A stretch of DNA of 45,649 bases from Agarophyton chilense (Eukaryota > Rhodophyta > Florideophyceae > Gracilariales > Gracilariaceae). The stretch spans positions 1 through 45,649 of the forward strand of contig JARGXX010000041.1 of assembly GCA_030374765.1 (NCBI GenBank), given 5' to 3'. Positions 6,459 through 40,671 of this stretch are shown here, in pieces. The translations under genes were made by a program, and so were the position numbers. Each line of letters begins with the position of its first letter. Position 1 is the stretch's first letter. Below the pieces are notes generated by a model. That model was not told the origin of the DNA, did not search any database, and was given only the letters and a program-made list of their open reading frames with translations.

Positions 6459-6487
6459 CGTCTGTGTTTTCGGAAAGCTAGTATTGG
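6459..6487 (+). repeat. Left terminal inverted repeat
   Basis: The 29 bases read inward CGTCTGTGTTTTCGG then AAAGCTAGTATTGG. The reverse complement of 26891-26919 is the same except for one T/C difference at base 11. The sequence that follows (6488-6800) holds many short CTAG-centred motifs also abundant at the right end, as expected for subterminal transposase sites. Confidence 0.9.
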
Positions 6488-6800
6488 GTTCTAGATTTCT
6501 AGTTTGGGTGTGCTAGAATGTCTATGGTTAGCATTCATAGATTCGCAGATTTTTGATGCCAGAATATCTAGCGCAAAAATACTAGCCCAAGTGAATTTTG
6601 TGGAGAATGTGGAAAACTAGCAATCATCTGTACTAACACCGGCACACTAGGAAGAATGGAAGAGAACTTGGGAGATATCTTTCGATACTCATTAATCCTA
6701 GACCATGAATTCTGTCGACAATGAAAGGAATACTGAACGCTATCTAGCGCATGATCATTCATTTCTCGAAGGTATAATAGCGAGTATGAGCCGTTCAAAT
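6488..6800. promoter_or_regulatory. Left subterminal region with CTAG motifs
   Basis: CTAG occurs repeatedly (GCTAGT, TCTAGAT, TCTAGTTT, GCTAGAAT, TCTAGCGC, ACTAGCCC, ACTAGCAA, ATCTAGCGC). The right subterminal region has the same motif (ACTAGCAG, ACTAGCTGG, ACTAGCTGCC). In CACTA-type elements, short subterminal repeats bind the transposon's own protein; that role is inferred here. Confidence 0.5.
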
Positions 6801-7140
6801 GCCCTGCACATTCAATTTAATTTCCTCTAATGACCCTAATAGCCAGTGCATAATACGGCGATCCTGCAACTGAAACCCGAAACGGGTCCCCGTTGCACGT
6901 GAAATGAGATCTTCCCAATTCGCATGCGGTGACCCGCTTTGCATCACGTCCCCCGATCGTTGCGCTTCAATTCGCGTCGCGCGAAGCGCGACGCGAAGAA
7001 CCCTCCATTCTCCGAGAACCATCCAAGCAGTACACCAGTTCACCCTTCATCAATCCCCAATTCCTACCTAAGTAGATAGACATCACAAAATCACACAAGT
7101 TAGAGCCCAATTCCTCTCTTCATGCAAGCAAATTCCATAT
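6801..7140. other. Non-coding stretch with a perfect hairpin
   Basis: No gene is seen. At 6971-6997 a 12-bp arm, TTCGCGTCGCGC, is followed by GAA and the exact complementary arm. It is a compact GC-rich hairpin in the left arm of the transposon. Its role is unknown; it could be a foldback remnant or a terminator-like structure. Confidence 0.5.
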
Positions 7141-7146
7141 AAACAA

Positions 7147-8065
7147 ACTTACCTCTGTCAAAAATGTGCTCCTCGTCTTGCCTCCACTTTCTTCATTCGC
7201 ATCAATAAATAGACAAAAGTCAGATCTCCGTCACAACACAAACCCAAACCACATCAGCACGCCACTCAACTCTATAGCGACCACTTATCCCATCTCTTGT
7301 CCAACCCTGCCCCCCTGTTCTCTTGCAGCAGCAAACAACGGCAAGTCAGATCTCCTTCCCTAACGCATATAAGATACGATGGAAGCTCGCACCTACCTTT
7401 GATGCCACCATTTCCCGATCAACCATTGTCGTAACAAGAAAGAAATATAAGTCAGACTTCCACCAAAAATCGAAACCACATTACTTCAATGACGCACTCA
7501 CCTCCTAAGAAACTTGCTTGGCCCAGTCCTTCTAGAATATCTCCCTCCTCACCCAATCGCTCCTTTCTGTCGCTTCGCAGCAGCAAAAAATAACATGTCA
7601 GAACTCATTCCAAAAACAATACCAGACACAAGTAGCACTTGCACTTACCCGCACTTCCATCATTCCCTCTTCATACAACGTCTCCGGTACTTTCGTAACA
7701 ATAAAAAAATATAAGTCAGATCTCCGTCAAAAACAGAAAGAAATTTCCTCAGCGACGAACTCACCTCCTAAGCCGCTTTCTTGATTCACTTCCTTCAAGG
7801 AGGTTCCCCTCCCCACAAACTCTTTCCTCTCCGTCACTTCGCACCAGCAAACAAGAACATGTCAGATATCCTTCCTAAATCTCTAAGAGACACCAGTAGC
7901 ACCCCCACTCACTTTTAACTCAACGAATCCTGCCCCCCCATTCCAATTTTATGTCGCTTCGCAGCCACAGTCAAAAATATGTCTGGTCTCCGTCCAGATT
8001 GCAGGGCAGAAAACGTTGCAAACTCACCTGTTCATCATCATGAGGGCCGCTGAAATAAGTTTCCC
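7147..8065 (-). other. Tandem exon/intron-like modules
   Basis: Read on the minus strand, short blocks are each followed by GTGAGT or GTAAGT and preceded by a TCTGACWT branch-point-like motif, a T-rich tract and an AG-ended acceptor. The likely exon blocks are 8028-8049, 7913-7956, 7765-7836, 7649-7689, 7502-7572, about 7397-7429 (acceptor AG lost) and 7153-7190. Blocks 7765-7836 and 7502-7572 are related, as are 7649-7689 and 7397-7429, which gives a tandem unit of about 265 bp. Two blocks translate similarly (DGEERV..GEGNLLEG and DRKERLGEEGDILEG), but I find no single open frame through all blocks. It could be a decayed spliced gene or a spliced non-coding RNA of the transposon. Confidence 0.55.
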
Positions 8066-8099
8066 ATGTTAGCAACAAGAAGGAGAACAAACACACCAG

Positions 8100-8350: not shown

Positions 8351-11300
8351 AGAGTCAGCACTTGTGAAACGCACGCGCAATACCGCTTCTCACGCACCTA
8401 GAAAACGCGGAAGGTCCACAAGGTCCACAAGACATCATATCACAGGATCTCAAGATCCCACAACACCTCATCCGGCCAATACTCACAATCAAGACAAGTA
8501 CACGCCGCCACTCAAAAAACAGAACTTTGAATATTTTTATTCCAACCCACTTTCCAAGACACATATGCGCCGTTTCTGTCTTGCCACACGACTTGTGGGT
8601 GTCTCTAGAGCATCACTTGACTTTGGTGAGTACGCCAGATAAGTATATACTCTCCCCACCGTCCTCGTCGTGCATCTTCCTCACTTCCAGCCTGTATATA
8701 GTATCCCCCTCTCTCCTCGTTCTACGTCTTTTTCACCTCCCCGATTTACTTTCCGAGATCGCGCGCAGGCACCCCCCACACCATGCAGCCTTCTCGCTTC
8801 CCAAGGTGCACCTTCCAGACAAAAGGTCATACCTCCCTTGTCCAACACCAGCGCCGGTGTCGCTACCGCACCACCTGCAACGCCTTCCTCGCCACCACCC
8901 CCAAAAGATGGAACTCAATTCCCACCACGCACGAAGCGCCCACGCGTCCAGACCGCAGAAATCCGCTCCGTTGGCATCTCCAACGCCTTTCCAACGCCTT
9001 TCCGCTGGTAGAAGAGGACGACTACCATTCGAGCCAGCTCGCTCTAGCCATACGCTCCGCAGACGCCGCCCACCTTCTCAACGCTTCTCTTCGCTGCCCT
9101 TCTCCCAGCCCTCGCGAAGTCGTGAAGCTCCACCCCATCGTCTCCTACATCTCCTTCATCGCCACCAAGCTCGGCAAACGCAAAGCCGACGAACTCATTA
9201 CCCTCCTCAAGGACCCCAACTACTCCCAAACACTTATTCAACAGGTTACCTCCGTCTCCCACTGCCTTCAACTTCATTCCAAACTATTCGAGGAAACTGT
9301 CGGCTCCATCGGCTTCAAATTCACAACCGTTCGTCACAATCCCTCAAACATCACCGCAACTCTCTACCTCAAAAACCCCGTCGATGCCCTTCTCTAGCCA
9401 CTTCGCTACGCCACTCGCGCTAACACCTTCTTTCACCCTATCAGACAATGTTCTTCAGATGGTTCTCCTGCACTCGCTCATCCCATGGCTTCAAAACTCG
9501 GCAGTTGTGTTTATCCGGACCTAAAACACCACAACCTCTGCTCTCAAGACCCAGATGTTATTTGGCACAACGCGGACATCTCTGGCATGAAATCTTTCAT
9601 CGGCTTCATCCAGCTCTACTCGGACAAGTCTTCCACCTCCCTGAAAAGCTCCTCTATCACCTCCTACCCCCTTCACATCACCCTCCTCAACTTTTCAGAC
9701 TCCTTCCGCCGCCATTGCATCTCCCGCAACTACACCCTCCTTGGCTACTTTCCCACCTCGTTCGACGCGTTTTCCTCCCCATCCGACGAGGAATCCATCG
9801 AAGGCCACCTTCTTTCTTCAGCCCTCAGCCGCACAACCCGATTGAAACTCATCCAAGAATCTCTACAAACCATCCTCGAACCCCTCGCTGCAGTCGCCCT
9901 CAAGGGTTTCCCTTTCCGTGATGAAGACCAGGTCATTAGACAGTGCCACCCAGTCATCGCAAACTATGCTGCAGACATCCCAGAAGCAAAAGACATCCTC
10001 GCCATCCTACACGGCACAAACCCATCCAAGCCGTGCCACAGATGCCTATCACCTCGCTCCGACCTCAACCTCCACCTCACTTCCGTATCCCCTTGAAATA
10101 TTTCCCACACCCGTCACACCAGATCCGTACACGACGCCCTTCTCAAGGATGCCAACGACGTCGAACAACTTCGCCGACCGCGCGTAGCAAGAACTCTCAG
10201 AGACCAAGCAGCATCTCTCCTCCGCACAAACTCCCTCTCCGCGTACCCATCCTTCTTCGAAACATACCCTCTTCTTAATATATCCCCACTCCTCAGCCCT
10301 TACTCTATCTTCTCCTTCGAACCCCTTGACAATTTCCATCTGGGTATCTCCAAGCTCGTCAAACTGGCAACCATCGAACGCTTGAAGTCCGACAGCCTCT
10401 TCACTACTCTCGCGTCCTCCAACGGCTCCTCGGAATCCTTTAAATCCATCCGAAGCTCCCTCCTGACCCACGCAAACAACATCCTCGCAGATATCGAAGC
10501 CAACTTCTCCGCACACGGACTGCACATCGAATTTTCCACACCCAAAAAGGGTACATACCTAAACGGGTTTTTCACCTTGGACGGCATCAAATGCATGCTC
10601 GAGGCAAAAGACTACCACGCTGTCGATATGGTCTTACCCTTCATAGGTGCCTTCTTCGACCGTTGTTGCGGTGAAGTTGACACAGCTCCCATCACCTCCA
10701 TCTTTACAGCATACGCAGACCTCTTCACCGCCGCACTCTACAACAACACCACCTCAGAATGGAGAGACCAACGACTTTACAACCTCCAGGAACTCATCAA
10801 TTACTTCAAGCCTCTCTGCGTCTCCGTCCTCGCCCCTTTCCAAGCTTCTCACTTCGGAACACTGAAGTTCCACCTTCTGGACCACATCATTGCTGATATT
10901 GATCTATACGGAGGTCTTCAATTCACTGACGCCGGCATCTACGAACATGCACACCTCCTCTTCAAAAACCACTATCGACGAACATCCCGAAGGTCTTCAA
11001 CCGCTCACAGAGAAACACTCGACGCATTCCAGCTCGCAGAATGCTTCCGAAACTCAACCGCCATTCTCCACCACATTTCCTCCTCCTCAAACTCCTCCTT
11101 CCGTCATGCTCGACGGTTTTCCATGGTCCGCGACGGTACCCCCGTGCTCTTCCGCCACATCATCACTGCAAAGAAGTACCTCCGTGCAAACCAAAACTGC
11201 TCCAATGCCTCTCTCTCAAACATGTTCACCTCTTTCACCCTTTTTTTCATCCCCCAAATCTCACGCGACGCCATTTCACCCTTTCACGATCTGTGCCTCG

Positions 11301-11965
11301 AAGCTATCGGACTCTCTTCCTCTTCCCTGTCTCTCTCCTTTCTTACCTTCTCCCTAATCAACTCCGCCTACATCCCCAGCGGGTTCACCCCCGCCTTACA
11401 AGACGTCGACCAAACATTCAACTGCATCCGCTTCAGAGAACCACCAGTCCCCGTCACACAGCGCATATTTGCCACCTCCACCTTCGGTCCTTCCAAACTT
11501 CCAAAGTTCTCTGACATTCTCGTCTCCGGTACTCCACCGCCTAACTGCAACTTCCCCACTGTTTGGGTCTGCAAGCTCCTCGCCCTTCTTTGCTTTACCA
11601 AAAAAGATGAAAATCCTGACGAACGCGAATACGCTTTCGTCCGCTTCTTCGAACTCACAACTCCCCTCGATCACATGGATGAAACCCTGAAGTACATCAC
11701 CCTCCGTTTGGCAACAGACGATGAACAGGACCACAATATCCCCCCCGCTGGAAACAGATTCCAACGCTCTGGCTCCTATGTCGCACCCTGGTTCGGTCTC
11801 GTTCCCTTCTCCGCCATCCTCAGTTCCGTCCATCTTGTCCGCCAGAACTACCCAGCACGCCCTTTCTTCCCGCCCCTCCCCTGGCATGAACATCGCTTCT
11901 CTATCAACAGATTCTACAGCGACCCACGAGCGAGAGCTTGTTTCTCTACAAAAGAATCAACTTGA
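8226..11965 (+). pseudogene. Plavaka/CACTA-type transposase, two nonsense codons
   Basis: This is the likely mobility gene of the 20-kb element. Exon 1 is open from 8226 to 8625. GTGAGT at 8626 and CAG at 8768 bound a 143-nt phase-1 intron that joins in frame to exon 2 (8769-11965). Exon 2 starts with a zinc-finger-like CTFQTKGHTSLVQHQRRC. One frame then holds YSDKSS (probable first catalytic Asp), LLGYFP, a QCHPVIANYAADIPE block with KPCHRCLS, FEPLDNFHLGISKLVK, and LKFHLLDHI followed by YEHAHLLFKNHYRRTS (probable acidic residue). This succession is typical of Plavaka-like transposases of the CACTA superfamily. A TAG at 9395-9397 and a TGA at 10094-10096 interrupt otherwise continuous similarity, so it is probably dead. 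The true start is unclear; the first ATG of exon 1 is near 8562. Confidence 0.8.
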
Positions 11966-11999
11966 AGCAAATGAAACCCATATTCTGATATTAAAGTTA

Positions 12000-12956
12000 T
12001 CAATCATCAAAAATATCTAGTTCACCTCCGCCTTCCACCCCCTCCCCATCTCTCTCCTCCCCTTCCTCTTTCGCCTCACATATTTCTTTCTCCTCCGCTA
12101 ACAACTCCGTAAACTCGCGTTCTTCAGGCATACAACGTCCGACGTAGCAATCAAATACATACCCTAGAAAAGTAGTCATCTCCTCCAAAAACTCCTCGTA
12201 GCGAACACCCAGATAGACCAGCTGGTTCGAAGGCATCCAAAACGCAACGGTCCCTTCACGTTCCTCATTTCCCAGCACTTCAATCGGGTCCTCATCCTTC
12301 ACACCATGGTTCACAAGCTCCTCTCCGTACTTCTCTTCCACCTTCCTTCTCGCTGTCCGTAAGATATCCTCCACAGCCACAGGCAGATGCTTCGCATACA
12401 GTTTCGAAAACAGCATCTGTCGCTTCCCTCCTCTACCCATCACCTCATCCAACGCCTCTACCACAGATGCAATCCCCGCATCCAAGCAGGCCAGATGCAT
12501 CACACTTCCATCCACATACTGTGTGTCTCCTTCCTTCCACGGTTGCTCCACATCGTACCCCATAAACTCTCTCAACACCTCCACACTCAACCCGTTCTTG
12601 AAGCACAAGTCATCAGGTTCATCCCCATACTTTGTCGAGTTCACATCGTACCCTGAAAAACATAGGTTCTCCATCTTGTCCAACCTCCATGCAGATATGA
12701 CGGGCTCCCCATTCGCGGCTTTCGGGAACAACTTCCCCCGAGCCTCCATCTTCTGCTCTTCATACAACACATTCAGTTCTTCATCATCCTCGTTAAGAGG
12801 TTTTCTAGCAAGTAGAGTATATCCCAGACCCAAAAACAACCTATCCCTCGCATTCCTTTTCCGCACCCCCCCAGCATCACTGAGAGCCTGTTTCATCCGC
12901 CTCCTCAAACACGTATCCCTCCTCAACTCCTCTTCACACTGCTTCTTCATCCCCAT
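12000..12956 (-). CDS. Accessory transposon protein, unknown
   Basis: This open frame of 318 codons starts with ATG at 12956. It ends 35 bp from the stop of the transposase, to which it is convergent. The protein is acidic and ends in a Glu/Gly-rich tail and ELDIFDD. No known domain is recognised. Its frame is open, unlike its neighbours, and it follows the ORF at 13061-14818 on the same strand with a 104-bp gap, so the two may be one transcript. CACTA-type elements often encode a second DNA-binding or regulatory protein, which is a possible role. A stop codon lies five codons upstream of the ATG, supporting this start. Confidence 0.6.
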   Translation of the reverse strand: MGMKKQCEEELRRDTCLRRRMKQALSDAGGVRKRNARDRLFLGLGYTLLARKPLNEDDEELNVLYEEQKMEARGKLFPKAANGEPVISAWRLDKMENLCFSGYDVNSTKYGDEPDDLCFKNGLSVEVLREFMGYDVEQPWKEGDTQYVDGSVMHLACLDAGIASVVEALDEVMGRGGKRQMLFSKLYAKHLPVAVEDILRTARRKVEEKYGEELVNHGVKDEDPIEVLGNEEREGTVAFWMPSNQLVYLGVRYEEFLEEMTTFLGYVFDCYVGRCMPEEREFTELLAEEKEICEAKEEGEERDGEGVEGGGELDIFDD

Positions 12957-13060
12957 CCCCGCAAATTTTCTCTATATCAGATTCTCCAACTCCATCCGCA
13001 CCACATGCAACAACATCTCATCACTTCCCCCTGAAAAGACGGAGTGTAGGCCTTCGGTCC

Positions 13061-14818
13061 CTACGACTTTCTTTCTGTTGCCAGCTCCATAGGATCTAAA
13101 GGCACCATCTTCTTTTCATTTATAATCAAAATAATCTGATTCCTCCCCGCCCTCACTTCTTCTGCCCTGTTCGACCAGTTTCGCTCCGGTTCCCTCCTTC
13201 CGAAGCACAACTCACTCGTCTCCTCCTTTGCATAACGCAATATGTTCTCGTAAACTCTCCAGGCTACTCCAATAAATCGCATATCCACTTCAATTCCATA
13301 CCGTTTCCGACCCCCTTTCCCTTTTTTGCCACCCACTTGTCCTGTTCGACCACGAAGAGTCTCTTGCAATGACGTCAGCAGCATTTCCTTTTTCCTATCT
13401 TCGCCCTCCAGCCTCTTCATATCCCTGTGGGCGAGTTTTAAGCTTAGTTGCAAACTTGCGTTGTCATCCCTTGCCCTTTGAAGCTCCCCCTTCATGTCTC
13501 CAAACTTGGCCAACAGCTGATTCCGCCCCATAAACTTCGTTTCTGCATACGTCATCCCCTTTTGTTCGCCTTCCTTCCACGGGCGAATTTCATCCTCATC
13601 CTCCTCATCCCCACCCCAGAGTCCATCTCCTTTTTCAACCTCCCCTCCCTTCCTCAACTCCCTCACACTCTGGTTTCTCGGAGGTCTCCCCGCGCCCACT
13701 CGGTCGTTTGACCCCTCAGCGTTCCCTTGTTCGACACTCCTCACTGCATGATCCGGGGTCTGTCGATAAGAAGACCGTTGTATTGATCTGCATTCCGGGA
13801 CTCTGCGAAATTGCACCCCCTTCCTTCCAACCACGACTCCTTCTCCCTTAGGCTCCGTCCTTACACGTTTCTCCCCGCTCCCACTTGGTATGGACCTTGG
13901 AAAACGAACTTGGCCTTTACTCCGTTCCGCCCTCCCACCTGGAACAATTTCGTCCTTTGATTCGTCAAAAACGTGTTTCTTTGAACCAGCAGTGCCTCCG
14001 CGTACCTCATTTATTTCTAAACCATGCACTTCTGCTTCATTGCCTTCTCCTTTTTCATGGAAGTTAACACCATGGGAACCACTACACAGTCGCCTCTTCA
14101 CTTCTCTCTCGGTCCCATTCTCTTCGTCACTAGCTAAGGGTGGAAGTTCGTGAACGGCCCGATTACGAGTCATCGGACCTCCCGAATTTCTTTCGATCCT
14201 CCTCACCACCTCGCTCACCGTACCTTCCGTCGCAGACGACGAACCTCTTTCTTGCTCCTTTTCCTTCACCGTCTTAGCAGAGGGCTTCTTGGCTGAAGGT
14301 GCAGACGGAGTGGAGAACGGTGTCTGTGGAAGAGTCGCCGCTTCGCCACCATAAAGTTTCATCATGTTCACGTCCCAGCAATAGAAAGAGTTGCGCTCCA
14401 TATCCCCCAGACGGTTCGGTACGGTATCTGTAGTTTTGAACGGATAAGAGCAATCCATTTTTTTCTCATCCTGAATCAACACCTTCCATACCACCACGGG
14501 TTTCTCCTTCGCCTTCCCGACCAGTTTGTGACCATGCAACTCTCTCCCCAAATCTCCCGTAAGCCTCCCAGTCGCATCAACTGCACCCCTTACAAATGCC
14601 TTCCCCACGACTTTCTTTTCGCCGTTCGGCGTGGTCACCAACCAAGTCACCTGCTCGTCAGGTTTCGGCTTCCATGGTGGGATTCCGACCTTATTCGCCG
14701 GCGTTGCTCCGCTGCGCGTTGCAGGCATCGCGTCCTTCCTGCTAGAAGCCGTAACAGGCGGCTTGGGTTTCCGAGAACTCCGAATGATCCTCCTGTTCTC
14801 TGCGTTTTTGCGCCGCAT
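13061..14818 (-). CDS. Accessory transposon protein with coiled coil, unknown
   Basis: The first ATG in the open frame is at 14818 (MRRKNAENRR); the frame itself is open to 14866. The product would be about 585 residues. The N-terminus is basic (RRKNAENRRIIRSSRKPKP). A compact conserved-looking segment with WLVTTPNGEKKVVGKAF and NSFYCWDVNMMKLYGG follows within the first 190 residues. A long, low-complexity charged middle comes next, and then a predicted coiled coil (LLAKFGDMKGELQRARDDNA onward) near the C-terminus. No family is recognised. A nuclear DNA-binding accessory protein of the transposon is possible but is inference. The frame has no internal stop. Confidence 0.6.
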   Translation of the reverse strand: MRRKNAENRRIIRSSRKPKPPVTASSRKDAMPATRSGATPANKVGIPPWKPKPDEQVTWLVTTPNGEKKVVGKAFVRGAVDATGRLTGDLGRELHGHKLVGKAKEKPVVVWKVLIQDEKKMDCSYPFKTTDTVPNRLGDMERNSFYCWDVNMMKLYGGEAATLPQTPFSTPSAPSAKKPSAKTVKEKEQERGSSSATEGTVSEVVRRIERNSGGPMTRNRAVHELPPLASDEENGTEREVKRRLCSGSHGVNFHEKGEGNEAEVHGLEINEVRGGTAGSKKHVFDESKDEIVPGGRAERSKGQVRFPRSIPSGSGEKRVRTEPKGEGVVVGRKGVQFRRVPECRSIQRSSYRQTPDHAVRSVEQGNAEGSNDRVGAGRPPRNQSVRELRKGGEVEKGDGLWGGDEEDEDEIRPWKEGEQKGMTYAETKFMGRNQLLAKFGDMKGELQRARDDNASLQLSLKLAHRDMKRLEGEDRKKEMLLTSLQETLRGRTGQVGGKKGKGGRKRYGIEVDMRFIGVAWRVYENILRYAKEETSELCFGRREPERNWSNRAEEVRAGRNQIILIINEKKMVPLDPMELATERKS

Positions 14819-14866
14819 CACGTGAACCTTTAGATAAGGGCCTCGGAATCTCTCGCAGACCGTCAC

Positions 14867-15901
14867 GAAAAGCAGGGCCCACTGACAACGTAAATGAACA
14901 CTCGTTGGCTACGTAGCCGTGCGATAGGGATCGCGGGCTTGCTTAACCTCTCTCCGACGATGGCGAACAGAAACGCGTGCAGACAAAAGGAATGAACGCT
15001 GCTTGAAGTCCACTTCACGTCCAAACGAATCGCTTTTTTCGGGTTCGTGATCTGGATGTGTTCACGTCGAGGACTAAGGTCTGCAATTACACTTTGCACA
15101 CCTGTTACAAGCAGCGTAAGAAACAGAGAAGGCGTGTGCGACTCGAGCCGTGCAACAAGAACATCTGCCTCAAGATGATTGACTGCGAAAGTATCTTGTT
15201 CTTGCTGCTGCGCTATTTGGCGAGCTGCTCGATACCCAACGCAGAGACAAATCTCCAATGTGGGTCCCATAGTTGTTGCGACGGCGTCTATATCTGTTCC
15301 GCATAGGTTTGAGTCATAAAGTGTCTGACTACTCACTTTATCAATGACAGCAACATGTGCATCTCAACGATTCATATGTTCTGACTCACATTCGGTGTTT
15401 CAATTCCGTCATTTCGTCGAGTTGAAGCAATTCGACCGCGTTCGCGCCGTTGTGGAATTTCATCCGGGAAGGTAATAGGAGTTGTTTTCTCCTCTGTACC
15501 AAGCCACTTCTCAGCGCTCAATGACCTATGAAGATCGGCTCTCTTTCGGAACAACCTCTCTGTGGAAGCCCATTGCATTTGCAACACGTTTTTACGGCTA
15601 ATGATTTGCCTCCTGTACTCTTTGACCGCATCTACTGTACTCTATTCGCTCTCAAGAGCGCACAGGGTGGGATGAGTTTCCGGACTATCGAGGCCGAAAA
15701 CCAGTGGAGGCGATGGATTTACCTTCGAACAATTGGAAAAAGCGAATTCAGAGCCCTCAGGATTTCTGTTTCGCATACCGCGGTCACTCGAGCGTCGACC
15801 ATTGCGACTTCAGGTTCGGCTTGTGATGTTGTGAATCGGGCTTATTTTCGAGTTTGTTTGCAAAGTAAATGCAGTCTTCCATTCTTCATCATTCGAATCG
15901 T
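14867..15901. other. No recognisable gene
   Basis: Short ORFs exist on both strands. One is a cysteine-rich plus-strand ORF at 15058-15306 (CNYTLHTCYK and later C pairs), another a minus-strand ORF at 14863-15336, and there is one at 15528-15908. None matches a family I know, and they overlap each other. The minus strand of 15400-15900 may be the decayed 3' part of the DCP1 copy. Nothing else is supported. Confidence 0.35.
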
Positions 15902-16745
15902 TCAGTGACGGGTTGTTTCTTCGATCCAACGTTGGATAGTTACTGCGACACTTTGCATCACGGAAGAAATGTTCACATCTGGCGGCAGAGTGGCACCGGT
16001 TACGCCGTAAATACGCTTCAATCCGGGAAAGAAGAGCTCTGGTGAATTATCTTGCACACTGGACGCCTCACTCGGTGTGGGGTTTTTAGTGGGTTGCAAC
16101 GATGGGCATTTTCTGAGGACGCGGGTTGGGAATTTGAGGACGGGTCTTTGCGTTCTTGATATTGGCGTTACGTGGGGTACGCTTCTGTGTACGTTGAGTG
16201 CGTGGGAAGGTATCGAGAAGGCGGGCAGATTGGGTGGGTTGTGAGGCAGACGTTTCGGACGATTGGGAGGAGGAGGGCATTTCGACGGGCGGTGACTGAG
16301 TCGCAGAGAGATTTCTCCCTTTTGCAAGAGCCTGGAGAAGTTGAAACACGGAAGAAGCCTCTGGTTTTTGATAAAACCAGATTCCGATTGTTTTCTGTTT
16401 GGAGTTTGTGTAAATGATCATCTGGTCTTAAAGCTCGATCTCCTTGTTTCCAATGACGACGTCCTCGGAATAGTTTTCAATACTCTTTCGATTTATGATG
16501 AAAATGCGGTGGCGAGCGCGGGCGGAGTTGTTGGGATGGTTTACATGAAGCTCGACGACAAAGAAAGAGCCTTCTATATCCAGTCGACGCCACGCTTGGT
16601 TGTCGTCGAGCTTATAGAGACAGAGGTGCGGGGCAAGTTTGATTACCTTTGTGACAGCTGGGTCGGCCTTTTGCAGCACGGACTAGTTCATTTTAGCGGC
16701 GATAGCATCACGACGGGCAGGGTCGAAATAAATACAAGCCGTCAT
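15902..16745 (-). pseudogene. DCP1: Captured DCP1 (mRNA decapping activator) copy
   Basis: From ATG at 16745 the frame reads YFDPARRDAIAAKMN, TAG, SVLQKADPAVTKVIKLAPH, then CLYKLDDNQAWRRLDIEGSF, RHRIFIINRKSIENYSEDV, EIEL, TAA, and DQMIIYTNSKQKTIGIWFYQ. These are the successive segments of the DCP1 EVH1-like domain (VLQ..DP, DIEGxxFVV, I.NR, IWFY). DCP1 binds DCP2 and activates removal of the mRNA cap in P-bodies. Two in-frame nonsense codons (16683-16685 TAG and about 16428-16430 TAA) and a later frameshift near 16100-16300 make this a pseudogene. It lies inside the transposon, so it is probably a captured host gene. The last frame ends at 15902 after LFFPGLKRIYGVTG..., which I do not recognise. 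Confidence 0.8.
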
Positions 16746-17442
16746 GCTCACGGAAAGCACGAGACCGTTCGGGGCGCCAGATGAATCGCACGGAGAAACG
16801 CCTGAGAGCTGGACGGGAGAAAAGGGGGAGACGGCGAGGGGAGGGGGGGGGTGGATGGTACAGATGGTCGCATTATTTCGCAAGGCGCAGCTTTGAGTCG
16901 GTTTGGCAAGGGGTTCCCAGCTCGAAAGTTGTCTGTTCACAAGGGCTTGCTCGCGACATGGGGAAGGCGGGAGGGAAGTGAAGGGATGAGGGTGACCATT
17001 AGAAGTTGACCAGGGACCGCAAGATACGACGCCACCGCGCACATGTCGAAGATACGCAGGAGTGGAGGGAGCAAGGGCAGCGATCGCGACTGTTAGATGA
17101 GCTGAACGGAATCAGTTGCGCACTGCGTTAGTCCATCGGAAAAGAGGACGACAATTCGGCTGTGCGGTTACGCGATATTGTAAAATACGACCGATGTATT
17201 CTGCCAGAGATGTTTGGCTTATATATGCCGCAGGGTTACGTGAAAGAAGGAAATTCATTGGATGAATGAGGTTACGTGAAAGAAGTAAATCCATTGGTTG
17301 AATGAGGTTACGTGGAAGCAGTCTCAAGTTGTAGACACCCGAGCGGTAGCTTTTCATATTCCACGACCATAGTGGCGAGTTCTCCACCCGCACATGGTTG
17401 AACTCTGTTGAAATTCCCTAGCAGTTCTGAGATTTTCCAGAC
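16746..17442. repeat. Intergenic stretch with short tandem repeat
   Basis: No gene is seen. Near 17234-17320 a unit of about 36 bp (GAGGTTACGTGAAAGAAG with an ATTGG-containing spacer) is repeated two to three times. A G-rich tract lies at 16825-16855. This stretch separates the minus-strand DCP1 copy from the plus-strand zinc-finger ORF and would hold both 5' ends. Confidence 0.45.
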
Positions 17443-18372
17443 ATGGCGAAGCAATTTTTTTGCATTGAAAATGAACGAAAAAAATGTCGGGTAAAGGACG
17501 GAGTGATCGGCTCTGATCATTATTGTCTCATATGCAAGGAACCAATTCATATCATTTGTGGCACATCACCGGTGACACCGATACTGGAAAAATACGGTTC
17601 AGACAAGTCCTTAGAAGGGTGCGTCGTTTGCAGTGTATGTAAAAATCCAGGCGGGGCAAATGGCGGAGCGAGAGATGTGTGCAGTGCCACTGAGGGGAAG
17701 CAAAGACGAGACAAAATTGATGATCAGAACTCAATTAGATTCGTTGGAGAACTAATTCCATCCGATGTGAAGGCATTGGTATATGTTGAAACTTAAGACT
17801 CTCCGGAGAGGAGAGTTTTCAATAAGCATGTGCACTACTTGTGCGTTGCAGGGAATCCTCGTGCCGAAAGCTCTGAATATGACCGTGCTCGCTTAATTCT
17901 CCCAAGGACTCCGCACAAGGTATACTGCACCGACACTCAGCTTGTGATTGATAAGCGTCGAAAAAATGCGGAGAAGGTCCGCAAATACCGTGCCAGACAG
18001 AGAGGAAGGGATAACCGCAACGCACGACGTCGATACCAGGAGAAGAGAGATCAACGCGATAGTGAATCTGCTAGAAATGCCACCTCAAAAAGAAGATCTA
18101 CGGGACAAAACCAAAGACCACGGGTATTTCTTACACCGGCTGGAAGCAGACGAGGCACTGCTGACGCTCACCATCTGCAAGGTGTATATCAAGTTCACAC
18201 GGTTACCGACCTCTATGAAGTTCGGCGAAGTTTTCACATATACAATGAATCGGAGCTTCCTGAAAACGAAAAGAAGAAAATCGTTGAGTTGAAGGGCGAC
18301 GGGGAAGGGGGACGTCAACTAATGTTGGTAACCGAAGAAATCAAAGCGGCTGATGTCGGAAAAATACCGTAG
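17443..18372 (+). pseudogene. Zinc-finger and basic-region protein, one in-frame TAA
   Basis: Starting at ATG 17443, one frame runs to 18372 with a single TAA at 17794-17796. The first part has a metal-binding pattern, CLICKEPIHIICG followed by CVVCSVC (C-x2-C-x4-H-x2-C then C-x2-C-x2-C overlap). After the stop comes HVHYLCVAGNPRAE and a strongly basic stretch (RRKNAEKVRKYRARQRGRD and more) like a nuclear-localisation or DNA-binding basic region. No family is recognised. It may be an accessory DNA-binding protein of the transposon or a captured host gene. An overlapping ORF in another frame (17948-18292) also looks protein-like, so the true frame of the second half is not certain. Confidence 0.5.
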
Positions 18373-18898
18373 AATTGTAAATGATACCGCAAAGCGAAAC
18401 AATCCATCACATATGTTGAGCAATACTGACGGTCATTCCGAATCGGTGAATTGAGCCAGCCATAGTACAGTTCGGATCATTTGAAGATCGAAGGTCGGAA
18501 GAGGATGCCGTGAGTACAATCGAACACATGCCATTTGTTGAAGGCATTAATGTCAATCTCGGCTGGTTCACGAGAAAGAACGCACCTGCATCTCATTCTT
18601 TTTTGTTTCTTGCATCGCGTTTGCCATACATACCTCTTCGGCGCGTATATTGCATCTCTGCCTTTTTGAAGGATAAGAACATGGTGACATTCGGGAAATC
18701 TTCTGAAAAGAATGAAGGTTCGGCGTTTGAGTATAAAGAGACACGTCTTCCGTGACTCTTGTCAATTGAACGGAATGGTTGCATTCTTCGTCCTTTTCTT
18801 TTCTGCTTTCCTTTTTCCCTTCTTTATCTATCCGGAATTGCTGTGGGTCGAGGTCTCGTTTCGTCTAGCACTGTCTGTGAGAACTTTCTGATTGGTGA
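18373..18898. other. No recognisable gene
   Basis: Only short overlapping ORFs on both strands (for example 18510-18755) are present. I see no repeats or motifs of note. Confidence 0.4.
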
Positions 18899-19460
18899 TT
18901 CTTCGACAAGCCGGGTGCGGGGTTAGTTGGAGACAGGGTTGCGGCAGTGGTGGAGGGGAAGTTGGTGCGGGGATTAGTTGCGGACGGGTTGCGGCGGTGG
19001 TGTGGGGAGAGTTGGTGCGGGGGTGAGTTGCGAACGGGGTTGCGGCGGTGGTGGAGGGGAAGTTGGTGCGGGGGTGAGCTGGCGACAGGGTTGCGGCGGT
19101 GGTGGAGGGAGAATTAGTGCGGAGGTTAGGTGGGGACAGAGTTGCAGCGGTGGTGAAAGGGCAGTTGGTGCGGGGGTTAGTTGGGGACAGGGTTGTGGTG
19201 GTGGTGGAGGGGAAGTCGGTGCGGGGGTTAGTTGGAGACAGGGTTGCGGCGGTTGTGGAGGGGAAGTTGGTGCGGGGATTAGTTGCGGACAGGTTGCGGC
19301 GGTGGTGTGGGGAGAGTTGGTGCGGGGGTTAGGTTGGGACAGGATTGCGGAGGTGGTGGAGGGAGAGTTAGTGCGGGGGTTACTTGAGAACAGGGTTGCG
19401 GCGGTGGTGAAGGGGAAGTTGGTGCGGGGGTTAGTTGCGAACGGGGTTGCGGCGGAAGAT
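18899..19460. repeat. 51-bp G-rich minisatellite
   Basis: A unit of 51 bp, occasionally 50 bp, recurs about eleven times. Its core is GTTGCGGCGGTGGTGGAGGG, followed by GAAGTTGGTGCGGGG and TTAGTTGGGGACAGG. Core starts fall near 18941, 18991, 19042, 19093, 19144, 19195, 19246, 19296, 19347, 19398 and 19449. As 51 is a multiple of three, long ORFs appear by default on both strands: a 17-residue Gly/Val-rich repeat on plus and a proline-rich PAPTSPPPPPQP repeat on minus. The G-rich strand could form quadruplexes. Confidence 0.85.
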
Positions 19461-20181
19461 GATGTTTTGGTGAAGGTGGTACAAACGTGGTTTGTGAAAT
19501 CTGAGTTGACGTTTCCAGTGGATTCAGCAAGAGATCGGGAAAGGATGTTGCCCTGAGGAGGGCGCGTGAGAGAATGTGGATCACGGTGACGACGGTTGAG
19601 GCAAAGTAAAATAAAGTTTGGAAGCAGTCGGTGCGCGGATCCCAACAAGATGACGAGTTGGAGGGTTGGCTTTCAGAAGGAGGGTGCGTAACGTGCAGCG
19701 TTGGATGCACTCTCGGTGAAAGCGCTGAGGGAGAAGGGAGGAGGGGAATGAGGGGCTGCGGGGATGGAAATGGCGGGGTGCGGCTGCATGCAGGGGCGCG
19801 AGCAGCGCGGTAAACGTTTGGTGCGCGGCGAGCTGTAGCTTAAGGATGACTAGGGTTGAGAGAGAGGGAGGAGGAGGGTTTAGGGAAGGGGAGGGATGGG
19901 GTTCGTGGTGGTGGTGGTGGTGGTTTAAGCATCGCGGTTGCCGGTTGTTTTGGACCTACACAACGAGCCGTGCGCGTATGCAGTGATACGGGGAAATCGG
20001 TTCCTTTTTGAAACAACTGCGCGCGCGCCCCATTTTGGACGTACATGGCACAGAAGCGACGTGCGCGCTGCAAGTGTGCCACATATGGCGCACCCAAATC
20101 GCAAACACCATATCTGCCTGGCTTTTCGCCATCAACTTGATGGACACTGGTCTTTCGTTCGAGCAAGCCACGCGCCAGTGA
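19461..20181. other. No recognisable gene
   Basis: This stretch lies between the minisatellite and the MED13 copy. A plus-strand ORF at 19938-20393 partly overlaps the MED13 frame and may be its decayed extreme N-terminus, but I see no motif. A short GGT run lies near 19906-19922. Confidence 0.35.
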
Positions 20182-23100
20182 ATTTCGCTGTGTCGACTCT
20201 TCAGCCGTTTCGCCCCGCACCTTCTCTCAGAACGCGAGTTTTTCCTCCCTTCTTGCAATGCGGACGCCAACCTCTCTCGTCATCGCCGAAACAACACTCG
20301 CCACTTGGCTCGCTGCCTTTTGCGCCAGTTCCACCTCACGCCCCCAGATCCCAACATCTCGCTTCCGGATGTCCAATTGCCTCAACCTCTTGAGCAGCTT
20401 CGAGAAAGTGGCAAACACACCATTCTCTCTCTCTTGCAGTCACAGGGAGCGCTCCGTGTTGCCCATCAGGTTGTACATCCGTCCGTAGGCCTTGCATATT
20501 TCTTCTCGGTATCTCTCTCCTCACCACCGAATCCTCGCGTAATCATCCGAGTCATCGTAAAAAACTCAACCGCTTGCAGAATCACAGACCAAGACTTGTT
20601 GCGAGACCCTAATCACTCCTTACACGTCACATCTGCACCTCTTGGCAGCCCAGCTCGGTTATCTCGACGTACCACGGCTAGCGATGCTCTAACCGAGTCC
20701 GTCCTTGACAGATGGCTCGAAGCCAGCATGTATCCTCGTAGTCCATCCTCGCCTGTGGAGCTGGATTCGTCGGTTGTGTTTGTCAAGTTCGAAAACGGAT
20801 TAGTCGTCCCTTATCCACGAGCAGTGATTCTCACCGACGAGACGCTGTTGCCTGCAGATTCAGCCACTTCCGCAGCTGTATCTAGAGCTGTGCCGGACCC
20901 CAAGAAACGTATCAAGAGCTCGAGGTTGTGGACGTCAAGAAAACTTCCAAGGTCACCCTCTCCGAGTAGCCCTCCTGCCAACTGTAGTATCCACTCTAAC
21001 GGAGAGAGCAGACACCTGCGACAGCGTTCGAACTGCCGATGGGTCGCTTGCGGCGAAGGAAAACGGGTGGTAGAGCTACAACACCAGCGAGCTGGAAGTG
21101 GGGTGTAAGGACATTACTTGCCAACGAGGGTGAAAAGTGCGACTGTAAAACGTTGATGGGACGTAGGTACGAGACGGCTCGTGAAGTGGTTGGGGGCTGA
21201 CTATCTATTATAACTCGTCCGGATCTCCGGTTAAGGAATCCTAAGCGAGGAACAGAATAGTCATGATGCCCATGTTGTCTCCTTTACTTGGAGTCGGCGC
21301 TCACCTCTGGTACACTATATACTGTGTGCCAGGGTGAGTGCCCAAATAAATATATAAATAATACCCAGTGGTCAGCCACTTAGCCAAACTACTGTACGGG
21401 TATGGTCCCTAATGGACTTACATCTACAAAGGGTAGTAAAAACAGCCACGTGGATGGCCACTACATGCACCGTTGCAAGCCACTCGACCCATGACGCCAC
21501 GTGTTCCACTAAGACATTCTGCCCCTAGGCATCCTATGCGGGATGCCGTTTCATATCACAATGCTGATGATATCACTCACTTATGAGTTCCAACCGCGAC
21601 TTCGCGAAAAACCAACCTATCGGATTCCCCGACATAGTAGACTACTACACCAACACCAACCGCACCCCTTCTCCCATGGAACCCCCTTCTAAGAAAGCTT
21701 CTGTGCTATTCAAAGACGACGCCTCAACTGCGGATTCTCTTAACGCTGCCATTCGATCCCTTCAGAAAGACCAAAAACAAGACCCTGCTCTCGCCACGCA
21801 CCATCCACTCGTCAAAGAGGGGTGTTCCCTAGAACTCCCGGTTCCGGACCTTGCTGATTCGGGCTTGCATAACTCCGTAGAAGGCGGAATAAATATTTCA
21901 CAAGGTCTTACTGGAACGCAACAAAATGGGACTGGAAATACTGGTTTGAATAATATAGCAGAGACGAAGAACGAGGCAATTCCTTTAGCGAACATGAAAA
22001 GTGAGCCAACGTTTGCCATCAACTCTAACAGTGGACTCGACTCTTTCTCCTTGGATGGAGATGAATCCAATTCACATGATTTCCTTCATGGTGGGCAAGG
22101 AATGCACATAGGAATGGGCATGACTGACTTTAGTACGTTGGATGAAGTGGCAGAGTTCTTCCCTGACGGAATCTATGAACGCTTGCAGCAAGACGAGAAT
22201 AATGTTGGGACCGACGAGAATTCCATTCAACCAATTTTTGAAAACGGGCAAAGATCTGAAGAGCAGACCGCGAATCCAGGTTCCATGCACCCTGATGGAA
22301 AACAAGGCGTACAAACCGCGAATATGGACGTGGACTTAGAGCACTCCAAGAATCGTCTATTGAGCGTCAGAGTGGAGGCAATGTTCAGTCTGAGTCGGAT
22401 GAAAAATTAATCAATCTATCACCAACAGATATCGTTCGTGCAGCATTGAAGAACTTTAAATCCCCACTCACAGACCGCAGGCCGCAGAGTTCATATGTAA
22501 GTGAAAAGCTCACTGCGTTCTTTAAAGAGGATTTTACAGAACGCCGTCGTGTGCGATTGTCCACTTCTCAGGGCGTCAGCAAGATAAGAAGATTTTCGAA
22601 ACTTTATAATTCGCAATGGAAGTTTTGTCTCTATAACGTATAAGGATGATGATGTGAAAGGTTTCTTGGGAACTGGTCAGCGTGCAACAGACAGAAAGAC
22701 CATATGGAAAACTGCCAATCATCTTACATTCCTCGGAGGAAACTTGAGAGGTTCTCCAGGCTTCTGCTTAAGGGCGAAGTGAAGGACCCATCTCTGCTTC
22801 GCAAAGAATCGGAACGGGATCTATTAGAATCAAATGACGACGAAGAACGGAAGGCCCAAACCCCCGAGCAGAAGGCATACTCGCCCACAACGTTGCGTTT
22901 CTTGCATGAGCTCATCGCTGAGGGCGCCAGTGAAAAGCGGGACCAAGAAGCTACAGTTGGGGATCGTACTTCTGAGATGGATGCCTTGAAATTGGCAGAC
23001 TCCATTGCCGTTGATTGTGCCAGTGCGTGCTATGTTTTATCAGCGTATCGTAATTCACACTGTGGAATATCTTCAAATGGAAGGCCTTTCTCCAAGAGAG

Positions 23101-23651
23101 AAGGTGAAATTCACTATCTTATTTCTTTACTTGAATTGCAGCTCTTTTCAATGAATGAACTGTCTCTGTTCCGGGGAAGTTTGAATGATCCTATGGATTT
23201 CCCCCAGAAGGAAAGAGTTTCTGTGGATTTTGAAACGAATGAGGTTTCTTCGGCTACAATGGGACGGGTGCTTCTTGGGTTGCCGCCAGCGTTGGAAACA
23301 ATTCATTGGTGTAAGACGTGTTTGGGGTCTCTTGCTTGCGGACCCAAGCTTTCGAAAACTAGATCAGGGGAATTTCCTCACCCCGAGCTTATCCGGGAAC
23401 CTAAAGACAACTTAGACAACTTACCCGGCTTACTGGGTCCGCTTTCTATCAACGACTACATGGGAAAATCTGCTGCCGTATTTCCTCTCAAGCCTCCGAA
23501 AGTGTGTGTGGGCTACAAGAAGGAGTGGGTGGAGACTTTTGGTAGGTTTGAACCATACAGCGAACGGAAGAATGTAGAATATGTTGGGATAGCGCCGGAG
23601 AATATCCCAGAAGATGTTAACGTATTCCTACGAGATGTGTACTCTGTATAA
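20182..23651 (+). pseudogene. MED13: Captured MED13 (Mediator kinase-module subunit) copy
   Basis: The open frame 20182-21105 ends in a segment, VELDSSVVFVKFENGLVVPY PRAVIL, that fits the end of the MED13 N-terminal domain (in animals, VEVLVAGVRMIYPACFVLV). After a non-coding block (21106-21582) come an acidic Asn/Gly-rich middle (21583-22410), a frameshift near 22350, further pieces to 22643, another frameshift, and a C-terminal part at 22704-23651. The last part has LGPLSINDYMG, then KPPKVCVGYKKEWVETF and NVEYVGIAPENIPEDVNVFL followed by RDVYSV. These match the MED13 MID/PIWI-like region (VGYDYDFLVLSP, DIAYVVLCPEN, SFFRDLTAIYESC). Beyond the TAA at 23649 the frame continues QECSFGTH, so the stop replaces the tyrosine. 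MED13 links the CDK8 module to core Mediator. This copy is broken and lies inside the transposon. Confidence 0.75.
21106..21582. other. Non-coding block inside the MED13 copy
   Basis: About 475 bp without coding potential separate two MED13 parts. The block starts near GTGTAAGGAC, a possible 5' splice site, and ends near CTTATGAG. It contains AAATAAATATATAAATAA near 21340-21360, which resembles a polyadenylation region. It could be an intron or the remnant of a solo LTR or MITE; no terminal repeats or target duplication are clear. Confidence 0.4.
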
Positions 23652-24477
23652 CAGGAATGTTCATTTGGAACCCATACTGTCTTTCCATTCGAATGAGTCG
23701 CTTTCATTTCTAGTTCGGTAAGGGATTCAACACCCTGTGAGAAAGGAAATGGAAAAGGCTTATCCGAAGCAGAACGAGTGATAACGGAACAATATCAGTT
23801 GTATGTGAAGGCGCTTAGCACCAAGCCGGCTTCATTGACTTGCGAGAGCCGCAAGAACCCGATATCCTCTCCAACTTGAATATCCGTACAGGACAAGGGA
23901 AGATATGTACACGTTCTCTTTTGGTGAGATTTCATGCTTCGTACGGCCGCGGCGTCGCTCTGTGCCAACCAAAAAGCCGCCGAAGCGCAAGCGCACACTC
24001 TCCATTAGCCGCCACAGCCATAGAAATGCAGAACCGAATGCAAAGCGGCGTTCGAATTCGTTTGAATCTCCTGGGCGGCTACCAGTAACATCCGTGAGGC
24101 TCTGCGGACGTGCTAGCAGAGCTCCGCCGCGCCGTCTGACAGCGAGGACGAAGACGACCAGCCTTCGTCGCCGGCGGCACAGCCGCACGCCCGCACGCGC
24201 GCTGTCGCTGACGAGTAAGACTACGACGATGAATTTATCGAGGGTGGTGATGTCGACCAACTCGATGAAGATGACAAGCAGCATTCCGACTATGTCGGTT
24301 TCGGGGGCTTCGTGTAAAGCTCTTTGAGAGTTCGCTGGAACTGGTCCTCCACACTCTCACCTTCTTTCAGCTTGACGTAAATGTCGTACAGCCGAATCTC
24401 AGCATCCTACTCTTCTATTGAGTCGTGCGTTTCAGATTGTGACTGTTCACATGAAGTAGACTAATATTGTCAAATGC
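23652..24477. other. Decayed sequence downstream of MED13
   Basis: The MED13 frame continues past its stop (QECSFGTHTVFPFE, then KGLSEAERVITEQYQLYVKA) to about 23830. Further on, one plus frame encodes an acidic tail (SDSEDEDDQPSSP, EFIEGGDVDQLDEDD) ending near 24318. It may be the end of the same captured gene. Frames are broken and no domain is certain. Confidence 0.4.
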
Positions 24478-25911
24478 GTGAATGGGGTCATAGATGCCTG
24501 GCATGATATTAATGCCATAGAAGGTACGGAAGGCCATTCCTTGGGAAGCAGCAGCGAGGCAGAGATCCACGGCCAGCCATTCCTCTCGGCTTCTGAAAAT
24601 CTCGGGGTCCTCTCACGGCTCAGTAAACAGAGCGTAGACACAAACGCTAGCTACATAGGCAGCGATGCCGAATGTAGAATGAGCCTGCTACCGGATTTTG
24701 TCGTGATGGACTACCAGGAAAGGATTCAAAAGGGCCATACTGGAGATGAGTTTGACTACGCCGCAAACCACAAAAACGTAGAAGAGATATCTCTGAATCG
24801 CATGCATCAAGCAGAGGTGCACCGCGCGCAATGAAGGATAAACACGGCCCCTATCCCAGCAGGAGGTACTTCGTGGCTTAGCGCGACTGATGATGATGAT
24901 GGTGACTCTGAACCGGCAGATGAGACGGTGAACGCTACCATTACAAAGCCACCCAGCAACCCAGCATGTGCGACACCAATCTGAAGCGGAATGTCTGTGA
25001 GCGATTCAAGGTCTGACACGACCCAAACGCTCGTTCTTCAAACTCACAGTGATCTGCTGTCCTTACAGATCACGTTGGATCTCATGCGCCCTGAGAGGCA
25101 ATCCTCAACGTCCGTTTGAAACCTTGTAAATCAACTGGACATCACAAGGAAGCAGCTCAGTCACGCTCAAACAAAATTATTCAAACTCAGAATGCGGTAG
25201 CCTTCGGTACGAAATGGACCTGTTGCTGAAAGAGGTTCATGTACTTGCCTCAGAGAAGAAAAGAACGCCCAGGACGAAACAAAAGTTCTTGAGGAGATGG
25301 AAAGACTGATCAAGAACTCTGAGAAAAATTTGCGATTGAGAGAGGAGGAGCTATCTGTCATGGATCAAGAACTCAAAAACTTTTCCGAACATATGGAAAA
25401 TCTGGAGCGGTCCCGGAAATATTTGGAAGAAAAACTGCGTACATCAAAGGTTATCGAGAGAGCTCAGGAGAGTGAGATTGCGCGACTAAATGCGAAGCTT
25501 GAGACGAGTCGGTTAATGACCGCCAAGCTTGACGACGTTATGAAGCGAGCCGACGGGCTTCAGAAAGAAATATCGAAGGAGAGAGAAGCCCATTTGCGGG
25601 GCATTGCCGAGGCGGTTAAACGAGAACAGCGCAACGCAGAGGAAGCTCCCAAAGAAGCCAGACTGAGGGCGAGGAATCATACGAAAATGCTCGAAGACGT
25701 GCGCGCAAGTGCTTCGACTGCTGCCCGGGGCAGCTTGAGAGCGAATCAAGAGAGAATCTCCAGAAGAGGAGCTTGGCTCGCGGACTTTTGGAGAAGGTTG
25801 CTTCATCTAGGAAGGTTAAACAGTGATTTTTCCACGGCCCATACCGCCCGCACATCTTCTGCTGAGATAAGTGGAAACAGAGAAAGGAGCGTCCTATCGA
25901 GACGTCAGTGA
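24478..25911 (+). pseudogene. Captured coiled-coil protein, broken
   Basis: Plus-strand pieces read as one degraded protein. There is an acidic region (SATDDDDGDSEPADETVN near 24880-24930), then QTLVLQTHSDLLSLQITLDL, NLVNQLDITRKQLSHAQTKL and, after a frameshift near 25255, DETKVLEEMERLIKNSEKN. A long heptad-rich coiled coil (LRLREEELSVMDQELKNF onward) follows to about 25650. Stops near 24835, 24982 and 25128 and at least one frameshift break it. Coiled-coil sequence alone does not identify a family, so no name is given. It is the third host-like gene piece inside the transposon. Confidence 0.5.
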
Positions 25912-26680
25912 TCGAGGAACTTGTCTTTCACCAAAAACATCACTTTGATCCGTATTCTTGCTCGCTTATTACAATTTGCCCCGCCGAGTCATATCAGCCT
26001 TCCACCGAGCTTTCGAGTAGAGGAGAGTATTTTAGAACTCTTTCTTACCAATCCGACCCGATGGTGCGCTATAACTTTCGCCCATGCTGTGCGTAGGGAT
26101 CATAGCTAGGTTGCGTTGGTAGTCCCTTCACCACCCAACACGCCCTGCGTAAAGATTATTTTCCCTTTGATCTCCTCCCGCGTAGAGCTGGTCTGCTTTC
26201 GAAGCCAAGCTTTCGTTTAATATAGTTTCTCCTCAGGCATAAACCGCTCTGTAACCTGGTCTACTCACTCTACATGTTTCTTTCCGTCGTCCAGAGTAAA
26301 GTATCCTCGTCATTTGTGATCTACCTCCGACGGCAATTCTCGAAATGAGGCTCACCATTCCAACCTGCGAACGACGGCACCCATCCCCTCATGATTGTAT
26401 GACGGCATTTTTGAGCAAATGCGGAGCCGAACTGTATCCATGCATGACACTAACGAAAGGTAGGTGGAACGGTTTTTGGAGCTGGGAGTAGGGGGATCGA
26501 TGGGGAGGAGGAGAAGGAGGAAGGAGGGTTTGTAGCGGGGATCGCGGGGAGTGGAGAGGAAGATGAGGGGTGCAAGGGGAAGGTGGGCGAGACCAGGTCG
26601 TATTGTGGATGGTGGTTCTGGGAGGTATCATTGTGATATGGATTGGTGTGAGGGTGTTTTAGCCAGGCTTTTGTCATTCA
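25912..26680. other. No recognisable gene
   Basis: Only short shadow ORFs are present. A purine-rich, G-rich block lies at about 26470-26600 on the plus strand. It makes proline/serine-rich ORFs on the opposite strand without similarity to known proteins. Confidence 0.4.
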
Positions 26681-26890
26681 CATCTAGCGTTTGGCATTCA
26701 AACATAGGCGGTAAACTAGCAGGGGCTTGTGTATTCGATTCCCATTCATAATGTGCAGGATTTTGATATAGAATCGAAAGCCAAAACTAGCTGGCACTCT
26801 AAAAAATTTATAGAAATTACTTCTGCATCCGCGATCCGTCATTTTTCGCAGATTTTTCGCCGGATATCTTCCGGCATACTAAACTAGCTG
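26681..26890. promoter_or_regulatory. Right subterminal region with CTAG motifs
   Basis: ATCTAGCG, ACTAGCAG, ACTAGCTGG and ACTAGCTGCC occur within 200 bp of the right end, matching the motif set of the left end. This supports 6459 and 26919 as the two ends of one element. Confidence 0.5.
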
Positions 26891-26919
26891 CCAATACTAG
26901 CTTTCCGAGAACACAGACG
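26891..26919 (-). repeat. Right terminal inverted repeat
   Basis: CCAATACTAGCTTTCC followed by GAGAACACAGACG is the reverse complement of the left end with one mismatch. The next two bases, TC, are the second copy of the target duplication. Confidence 0.9.
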
Positions 26920-26921
26920 TC

Positions 26922-40089: not shown

Positions 40090-40091
40090 AT
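40087..40091. repeat. Target duplication CATAT of element B
   Basis: CATAT here and at 31144-31148 flank the two LTRs of B on their MLH1 sides. A normal insertion would read CATAT-LTR to LTR-CATAT. Here both copies lie between the LTRs, in inside-out order. Confidence 0.8.
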
Positions 40092-40656: not shown

Positions 40657-40671
40657 TTCCCCCTTTTTTGG
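40657..40671 (-). promoter_or_regulatory. Polypurine tract of copia element
   Basis: On the minus strand CCAAAAAAGGGGGAA lies directly before the 3' LTR. It is the usual primer for plus-strand synthesis. Confidence 0.75.

Follow-up and report, generated by a model that had tools for sequence, protein, structure and literature searches.

A 20.5-kb Plavaka-type transposon with distinct termini interrupts a chromovirus integrase in Agarophyton chilense

Among DNA transposons of the CACTA group, PlavakaA elements of Agaricomycotina fungi are described, in the relevant passages of one account, with the termini TGT..ACA and 2-bp target duplications (PMC12730594). The same passages give PlavakaB the termini CATCA..TGATG and duplications of 2 or 3 bp, with a captured TET/JBP gene in some families, and list CAC..GTG ends and 3-bp duplications as features of EnSpm (PMC12730594). 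KDZ elements of fungi are presented there and in sections of a second paper as large transposons with terminal inverted repeats (TIRs), about 9-11 kb long in Cryptococcus, with duplications of 7-8 bp, which one report puts at 4-8 bp (PMC12730594, PMC12810828). In a red alga, large CACTA elements are known that measure 16-20 kb and have 4-5 open reading frames (ORFs), as outlined in part of another report (PMC6431247), and size alone is therefore not new. Here we describe a 20,461-bp element at positions 6459..26919 (+) of a 45,649-bp stretch of the Agarophyton chilense genome (contig JARGXX010000041.1), hereafter the window, which forms bases 1-45,649 of contig C41 in the 79.8-Mb, 135-contig genome that was searched. 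With a probability of roughly 0.93, we read it as a copy of a multi-copy Plavaka (CACTA-group) family that has CGTCTGTG..CACAGACG inverted repeats, is flanked here by a TC duplication, and was likely inserted into a chromovirus integrase by cut-and-paste.

The whole element is one DNA unit lying inside the integrase (Table 1). Its two ends form an inverted match of 29 bp with one mismatch, and a longer arm of 39 nt is 87% complementary. The junctions read ..GTATTC/CGTCTGTG..CACAGACG/TCATCGG.. (slashes mark the borders of the element), and the TC found on both sides is the target duplication. When the flanks were rejoined with a single TC, the integrase frame was open across ..DGYVFIGKEYW... 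At up to three mismatches, the uninterrupted 35-base joined site was counted 159 times across the genome, and its reversed control not once. Among the 100 of these sites that were listed, one was exact, 63 had one mismatch and 36 had two; in 62 of the 63 one-mismatch sites, the difference fell on one and the same base, immediately to the right of the insertion site. Positions 6459-26919 are a single transposon with exact ends. A preliminary description of this DNA had already proposed one large transposon on the basis of the repeats, the duplication and the restored frame, with ends that begin with CGTCTGTG and not with CACTA. The intact integrase sites agree with its junction, and further copies with the same ends exist.

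To follow the ends through the genome, we searched with an end pattern, which matched 177 places at up to three mismatches (91 forward, 86 reverse; none with the reversed control). Three overlapping pattern searches yielded 156 distinct end places among those listed, a set that leaves out no fewer than 21 of the 177. Forty-six facing pairs were formed from ends of unlike type, labelled by hand, less than 45 kb apart; they span 3,502 to 42,162 bp, and the duplication counts rest on the 40 pairs for which both flanks were read. A 2-bp duplication was present in 32 of the 40 and one of 3 bp or more in none, as compared with 13.4% at 2 bp in a control of mismatched pairs. After removal of the pair on C70, which is the same insertion as that in the window, the count was 31 of 39 (binomial p 1.8e-20). 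AA or TA accounted for 18 of the 32 duplications. The preliminary description had recommended looking for relatives that share these ends and have 2-bp duplications, and such relatives occur. The element does not stand alone: 177 ends match, and there are independent copies of almost equal size. The copies on C3 and C115 match the window in all stretches tested (left end or transposase, ORF2, 14900-18400, and right arm). Their ends are 19,806 and 19,657 bp apart, respectively, as against 19,794 bp for the window element minus a nested 667-bp long terminal repeat (LTR). The C115 copy carries a TA duplication of its own; the C3 copy has none.

The exact position of the ends bears on whether this might be a PlavakaA family, either with TGTG..CACA as its true ends and CGTC/GACG as conserved flank, or with four extra terminal bases. 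TGTG..CACA does sit 4 bp inside the ends, and 2-bp duplications belong to PlavakaA as characterized in parts of PMC12730594. As flank, however, CGTC and GACG would have to be explained as inverted, not direct, copies. In addition, 96 of 100 listed ends begin with CGTC, a count that the search pattern itself favours, and the duplication lies directly outside these bases in 32 of 40 pairs. We consider a PlavakaA identity unlikely, although a PlavakaA family with four extra terminal bases may still be the right reading.

The transposase frame carries the Plavaka transposase domain PF18759 (1.2e-18, 67.9 bits against a cut-off of 26.3; 72.7 bits in the genome scan). By this profile match the transposase is assigned to Plavaka in the CACTA group, in line with the earlier impression of a Plavaka/CACTA-like enzyme. 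The motifs YSDKS, AADIPEA and CHRC were seen by eye in the frame, and H259, H263 and E283 appear invariant in the alignment. Comparison of the transposase profile with PDB sequences gave no matches up to E 5. Because its frame contains two stops, the window copy is likely dead by itself; the frames of all five array copies that were read contain stops, too. A stop-free frame of 1,087 amino acids is present at C68:668518, 3,182 bp from its left end.

We then compared the positions of transposases and ends. Among the PF18759 matches listed for the genome, 123 in number, 17 were preceded on their own strand by one of the listed left ends at a distance of 2.3-3.2 kb. Fifteen of these lay 3,124-3,182 bp inside the left end, five of them being the window insertion and its array copies, and the other two lay at 2,344 and 2,384 bp. 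The matches listed for the C-terminal part of the window transposase were 72 rows in two groups, with a gap in identity between 56% and 69%. Of the 39 rows at 69% identity or more, 28 had one of the listed left ends no more than 9 kb upstream, versus none of the 33 rows at 56% or less. When array duplicates and one split row were removed by hand count, 22 of 33 close loci had a left end upstream. The ends track a single Plavaka transposase lineage, which lies about 3.1 kb inside the left end. Separately, a sister Plavaka lineage (50-51% identical) has several open frames of 1,137 amino acids (C10:935186, C117:1464891, C2:42029, and C12:357303).

Several observations weigh against the family reading. 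Eleven of the 39 close transposase rows had no listed left end upstream, and among the matches listed a transposase lay inside only 15 of the 46 pairs, movement in trans being assumed for the others. Eight of the 40 read pairs lacked a 2-bp duplication (C3, C4 at 457143, C10 at 614694, C16, C68 at 2151641, C80 at 1427209, C97, and C98), the full-size C3 copy among them. Among the longest pairs (28-42 kb) there may be wrong pairings or nested elements, and neither a new insertion nor an excision was observed. The missing duplications, together with a nested solo LTR showing that other elements have landed inside, could also be taken to mean that the two ends are separate insertions flanking unrelated sequence, with no 20-kb unit at all. 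Against this stand the TC duplication and the uninterrupted sites, and the independent full-size copies on C3 and C115, spaced 19.8 and 19.7 kb, contradict it; we regard it as exceedingly improbable. Equally hard to credit is another cargo carrier, Starship-like or Helitron, containing a mere Plavaka relic. The size of about 20 kb and the modules that vary among copies would suit such a carrier, but the ends go with one Plavaka lineage, and a Pfam scan of 20 ORFs of the element at E 0.1 revealed neither a captain recombinase nor Rep/helicase. Neither inverted repeats nor 2-bp duplications fit the defining features of Helitrons.

Set beside the described systems, the family shares with PlavakaA the transposase group and the 2-bp duplication and differs in its termini, CGT..ACG here versus TGT..ACA. 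It shares the transposase group with PlavakaB as well, but its ends are not CATCA..TGATG, and no TET/JBP match was found in the 20 element ORFs scanned, whereas some PlavakaB families carry such a gene. Both comparisons were made by description. En/Spm (CACTA) elements are likewise large with several ORFs, but the ends here are not CAC..GTG and a 3-bp duplication was found in 0 of 40 pairs. KDZ elements (Kyakuja, Dileera, Zisupton) are likewise large and TIR-bearing, but they belong to another transposase group, and a duplication of 7 or 8 bp was seen in 0 of 40 pairs. The family is a Plavaka variant with new termini, filed as neither PlavakaA nor PlavakaB and set apart by their descriptions. 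In a literature search of open-licence papers, neither ends of this kind nor a transposon carrying TsaD could be recognised. It had been suggested beforehand that no described family combines these features; this stands for the termini, which differ from the published ones, but not for Plavaka elements with 2-bp duplications, which are already on record in the passages of PMC12730594.

Table 1. Coordinates of the element, its parts and its insertion site in the window
Feature	Positions	Strand	Basis or remark
Chromovirus integrase, portion before the insertion	5690..6458	+	Pfam integrase core PF00665, 4.5e-11
Target duplication TC, left copy	6457..6458	.	Read at junction
Left TIR	6459..6487	+	29 bp, starts CGTCTGTGTTTTCGG..
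Diverged direct repeats, AAGTCAGATCTCC type	7197..7996	+	Between left end and transposase
Transposase frame	8702..11962	+	Two in-frame stops (9395, 10094); Plavaka domain at about 9590-10300
323-aa ORF	12003..12971	-	No Pfam match
ORF2, 615 aa, the family's second gene, in convergent orientation to the transposase	13064..14908	-	Recurrence beside family transposases
TsaD-like fragment	14866..15363	-	Profile positions 28-109 of 264
Module common to sister Plavaka elements	17190..18384	+	DNA comparison with other copies
51-bp tandem repeat	18908..19506	.	Repeat search
Right arm, common to some other copies	19600..26919	+	DNA matches
Nested solo LTR, 667 bp	20983..21649	.	TG..CA, 5-bp duplication CCAAC
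Right TIR	26891..26919	-	29 bp, 1 mismatch against the left
Target duplication TC, right copy	26920..26921	.	Read at junction
Chromovirus integrase, C-terminal portion with chromodomain	26922..28205	+	Pfam PF00385, 1e-5

A search with ORF2 gave 77 rows, many of them beside transposases of the same lineage and on the opposite strand (for example on C3, C21, C61, C68, C97, C115, and C128). Since it recurs in this way, ORF2 is the family's own second gene. Scoring of 7,994 candidates turned up no relative of it at E 0.001, and Pfam gave no match at E 0.1; the PDB returned one chance-level row (E 0.79), and a single-sequence structure model, with a mean predicted local distance difference test (pLDDT) score of 36.4, was useless. 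The 323-aa ORF next to ORF2 is probably another exon of the same gene. The proposal that the cargo includes copies of host genes was borne out for one recognised host-derived piece, the TsaD fragment, but not for ORF2, which is family sequence.

The TsaD fragment matches one part of the protein only (Pfam 7.6e-11; best PDB chain 4.7e-8). The HxxxH motif of TsaD has a metal role. In the four copies of the window insertion that were read (window, C60, C69, and C70), its second histidine is an aspartate, and the fragment is for this reason unlikely to act as an enzyme. It is present in many copies of the family, and the capture is therefore likely old, the piece having probably been taken from the host long ago. 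A candidate host TsaD gene, and thereby a candidate donor, lies at C92:662141-662410; the match there is 74% identical over residues 1-90 in an open frame of 493 amino acids, with neither an ORF2 match nor a listed end nearby. TsaD and ORF2 share one frame in the array copies, of 805 amino acids on C60 and C69 and 554 on C70. We considered a TsaD-ORF2 fusion gene and rejected it, as the TsaD ORF stands alone, at 166 amino acids, in the window and in the independent copies on C103, C75, and C97; a later frameshift within the array is the more likely origin of the fused frame. The stretch 14900-15902 was found at 21 other listed places, with C21 and C61 as partial matches besides; 14 of the 21 continue past 15902, and seven end there.

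The module at 17190-18384 recurs on C100 (89% DNA identity), C105 (87%), and C121 (87 and 92%), in each case 4.4-4.7 kb downstream of one of three sister transposases with 53-55% protein identity. On C16 it is 84% identical, about 14 kb from a transposase that is 56% identical. The module DNA is much closer than the transposases are, which suggests exchange between the transposon lineages. Weighing against such exchange, the module was also found on C13 (two places), C71, C86, C7, C68, and C21, where no sister transposase was listed within 15 kb; it could instead be a mobile or host piece picked up by both lineages. It is, in our estimate, an even bet that CGTCTGTG..CACAGACG marks a third terminal type of Plavaka and that this type exchanges entire gene modules with a sister lineage of the same genome. 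If true, the module passed between transposon lineages long after their transposases had split.

The right arm seems to vary among the large copies, most of it being absent from C21, C61, and C103 among the matches listed. The solo LTR nested in it has at least 15 other matches at 94-95% identity. Copies on C3, C115, C121, C109, and C135 match both sides of 20983-21649 without the 667 bp, while those on C70 and C86 have the LTR. The matches of C60 and C69 to the window end at 21649, the LTR end, which would fit a longer retroelement at this position in those copies. Of the 20.5 kb of the element, 667 bp are the nested LTR, and the transposase frame within it is interrupted by two stops.

The left arm also differs among copies. 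In a comparison of 20 other left ends with the window, 11 had about 1.5 kb in common with it at 87-95% identity; the common stretch was 1,144 bp long in four, 709 bp in three, 526 bp in one, and 73 bp in one. The direct repeats at 7197-7996 recur in copies that have a long left arm. We rejected these repeats as a subterminal array of binding sites, for they are mostly missing in copies with short arms. Among five copies keeping only 73-709 bp of the left arm (C4, C25, C75, C77, and C109), four had no repeats within 1.5 kb and one had a single match, and 2-bp duplications are present in two of them (C75 and C77). The repeats are therefore probably not needed in cis.

Two further groups of end pairs were noted. 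Six pairs are sized 10,990-11,001 bp (C71:753139, C79:653829, C80:1427209, C105:1189916, C68:3638636, and C128:241498) and contain no transposase match among the matches listed; the five that were read showed TT, TT, AA and TA duplications and, on C80, none. Judged by size, they are perhaps a recent burst of one element. A 38.3-kb pair at C97:1124172-1162467 has its transposase 15.7 kb from the left end. Its outer flanks, GAGCATAAGCTA / TGGTCTATGCTC, lack a direct duplication and show a partial inverted match.

The window insertion was found with the same flanks on C36, C60, C69, and C70, the last holding one whole and two partial copies. In C70 (119,080 bp; loci L031-L040, bases 1-100,000), a tandem segmental duplication has a unit of about 50.3 kb that contains the chromovirus, the Plavaka element, and flanking genes. 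Window base 1 falls at 13,473 and 63,747, and similarity to the window within the element is about 97%. The copy that is whole in C70 measures 25,187 bp and has additional sequence between positions 18455 and 18915 of the window. As insertion and flanks are repeated together in the array, one insertion was multiplied by segmental duplication. Duplicated or misjoined contigs could mimic such an array, and the C36 copy and one of the three C70 copies do run off the contig end. We judge an assembly artefact very improbable, since the whole and the two partial copies stand within the single contig C70 at about 97% similarity to the window inside the element, and the other read pairs are mostly on contigs of 0.3-5 Mb.

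Other genes surround the element in the window. An ORF at 39034-40101 (-) encodes a complete Mlh1 C-terminal domain (PF16413, 6.5e-58) within the repeated unit, and this mismatch-repair gene copy was therefore multiplied with the array. Just upstream of it, at 40409-45362, lies a copia-type LTR element of 4.95 kb with RVT_2 and 248-bp LTRs that are 98% identical; it has at least 11 matches elsewhere at 96-98%, eight of them nearly full length. An ORF at 34411-35595 (-) contains a putative Uma2 endonuclease domain (1.1e-13).

On the basis of these results, we propose the following course of events. A cut-and-paste DDE transposase, the element's own or one from a related copy, would have bound the 29-bp ends, excised the unit, and placed it in the chromovirus integrase through a 2-bp staggered cut, and copies without a transposase match would move in trans. 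The family may have gained the host TsaD fragment early, and later the module from the sister Plavaka lineage, by recombination or faulty gap repair. After insertion, the window copy received a retroelement, since reduced to a solo LTR, and it was multiplied together with its flanks inside the array unit of about 50 kb.

Within the CACTA group, Plavaka has been little studied; two terminal types are described for it in the passages cited (PMC12730594), and this family would add a third. Besides large copies, the same genome contains shorter derivatives, a fragment captured from the host and a candidate for the gene that donated it, and a sister lineage with a module in common. The family is thus a clean system for how 20-kb transposons gain, swap, and lose genes.

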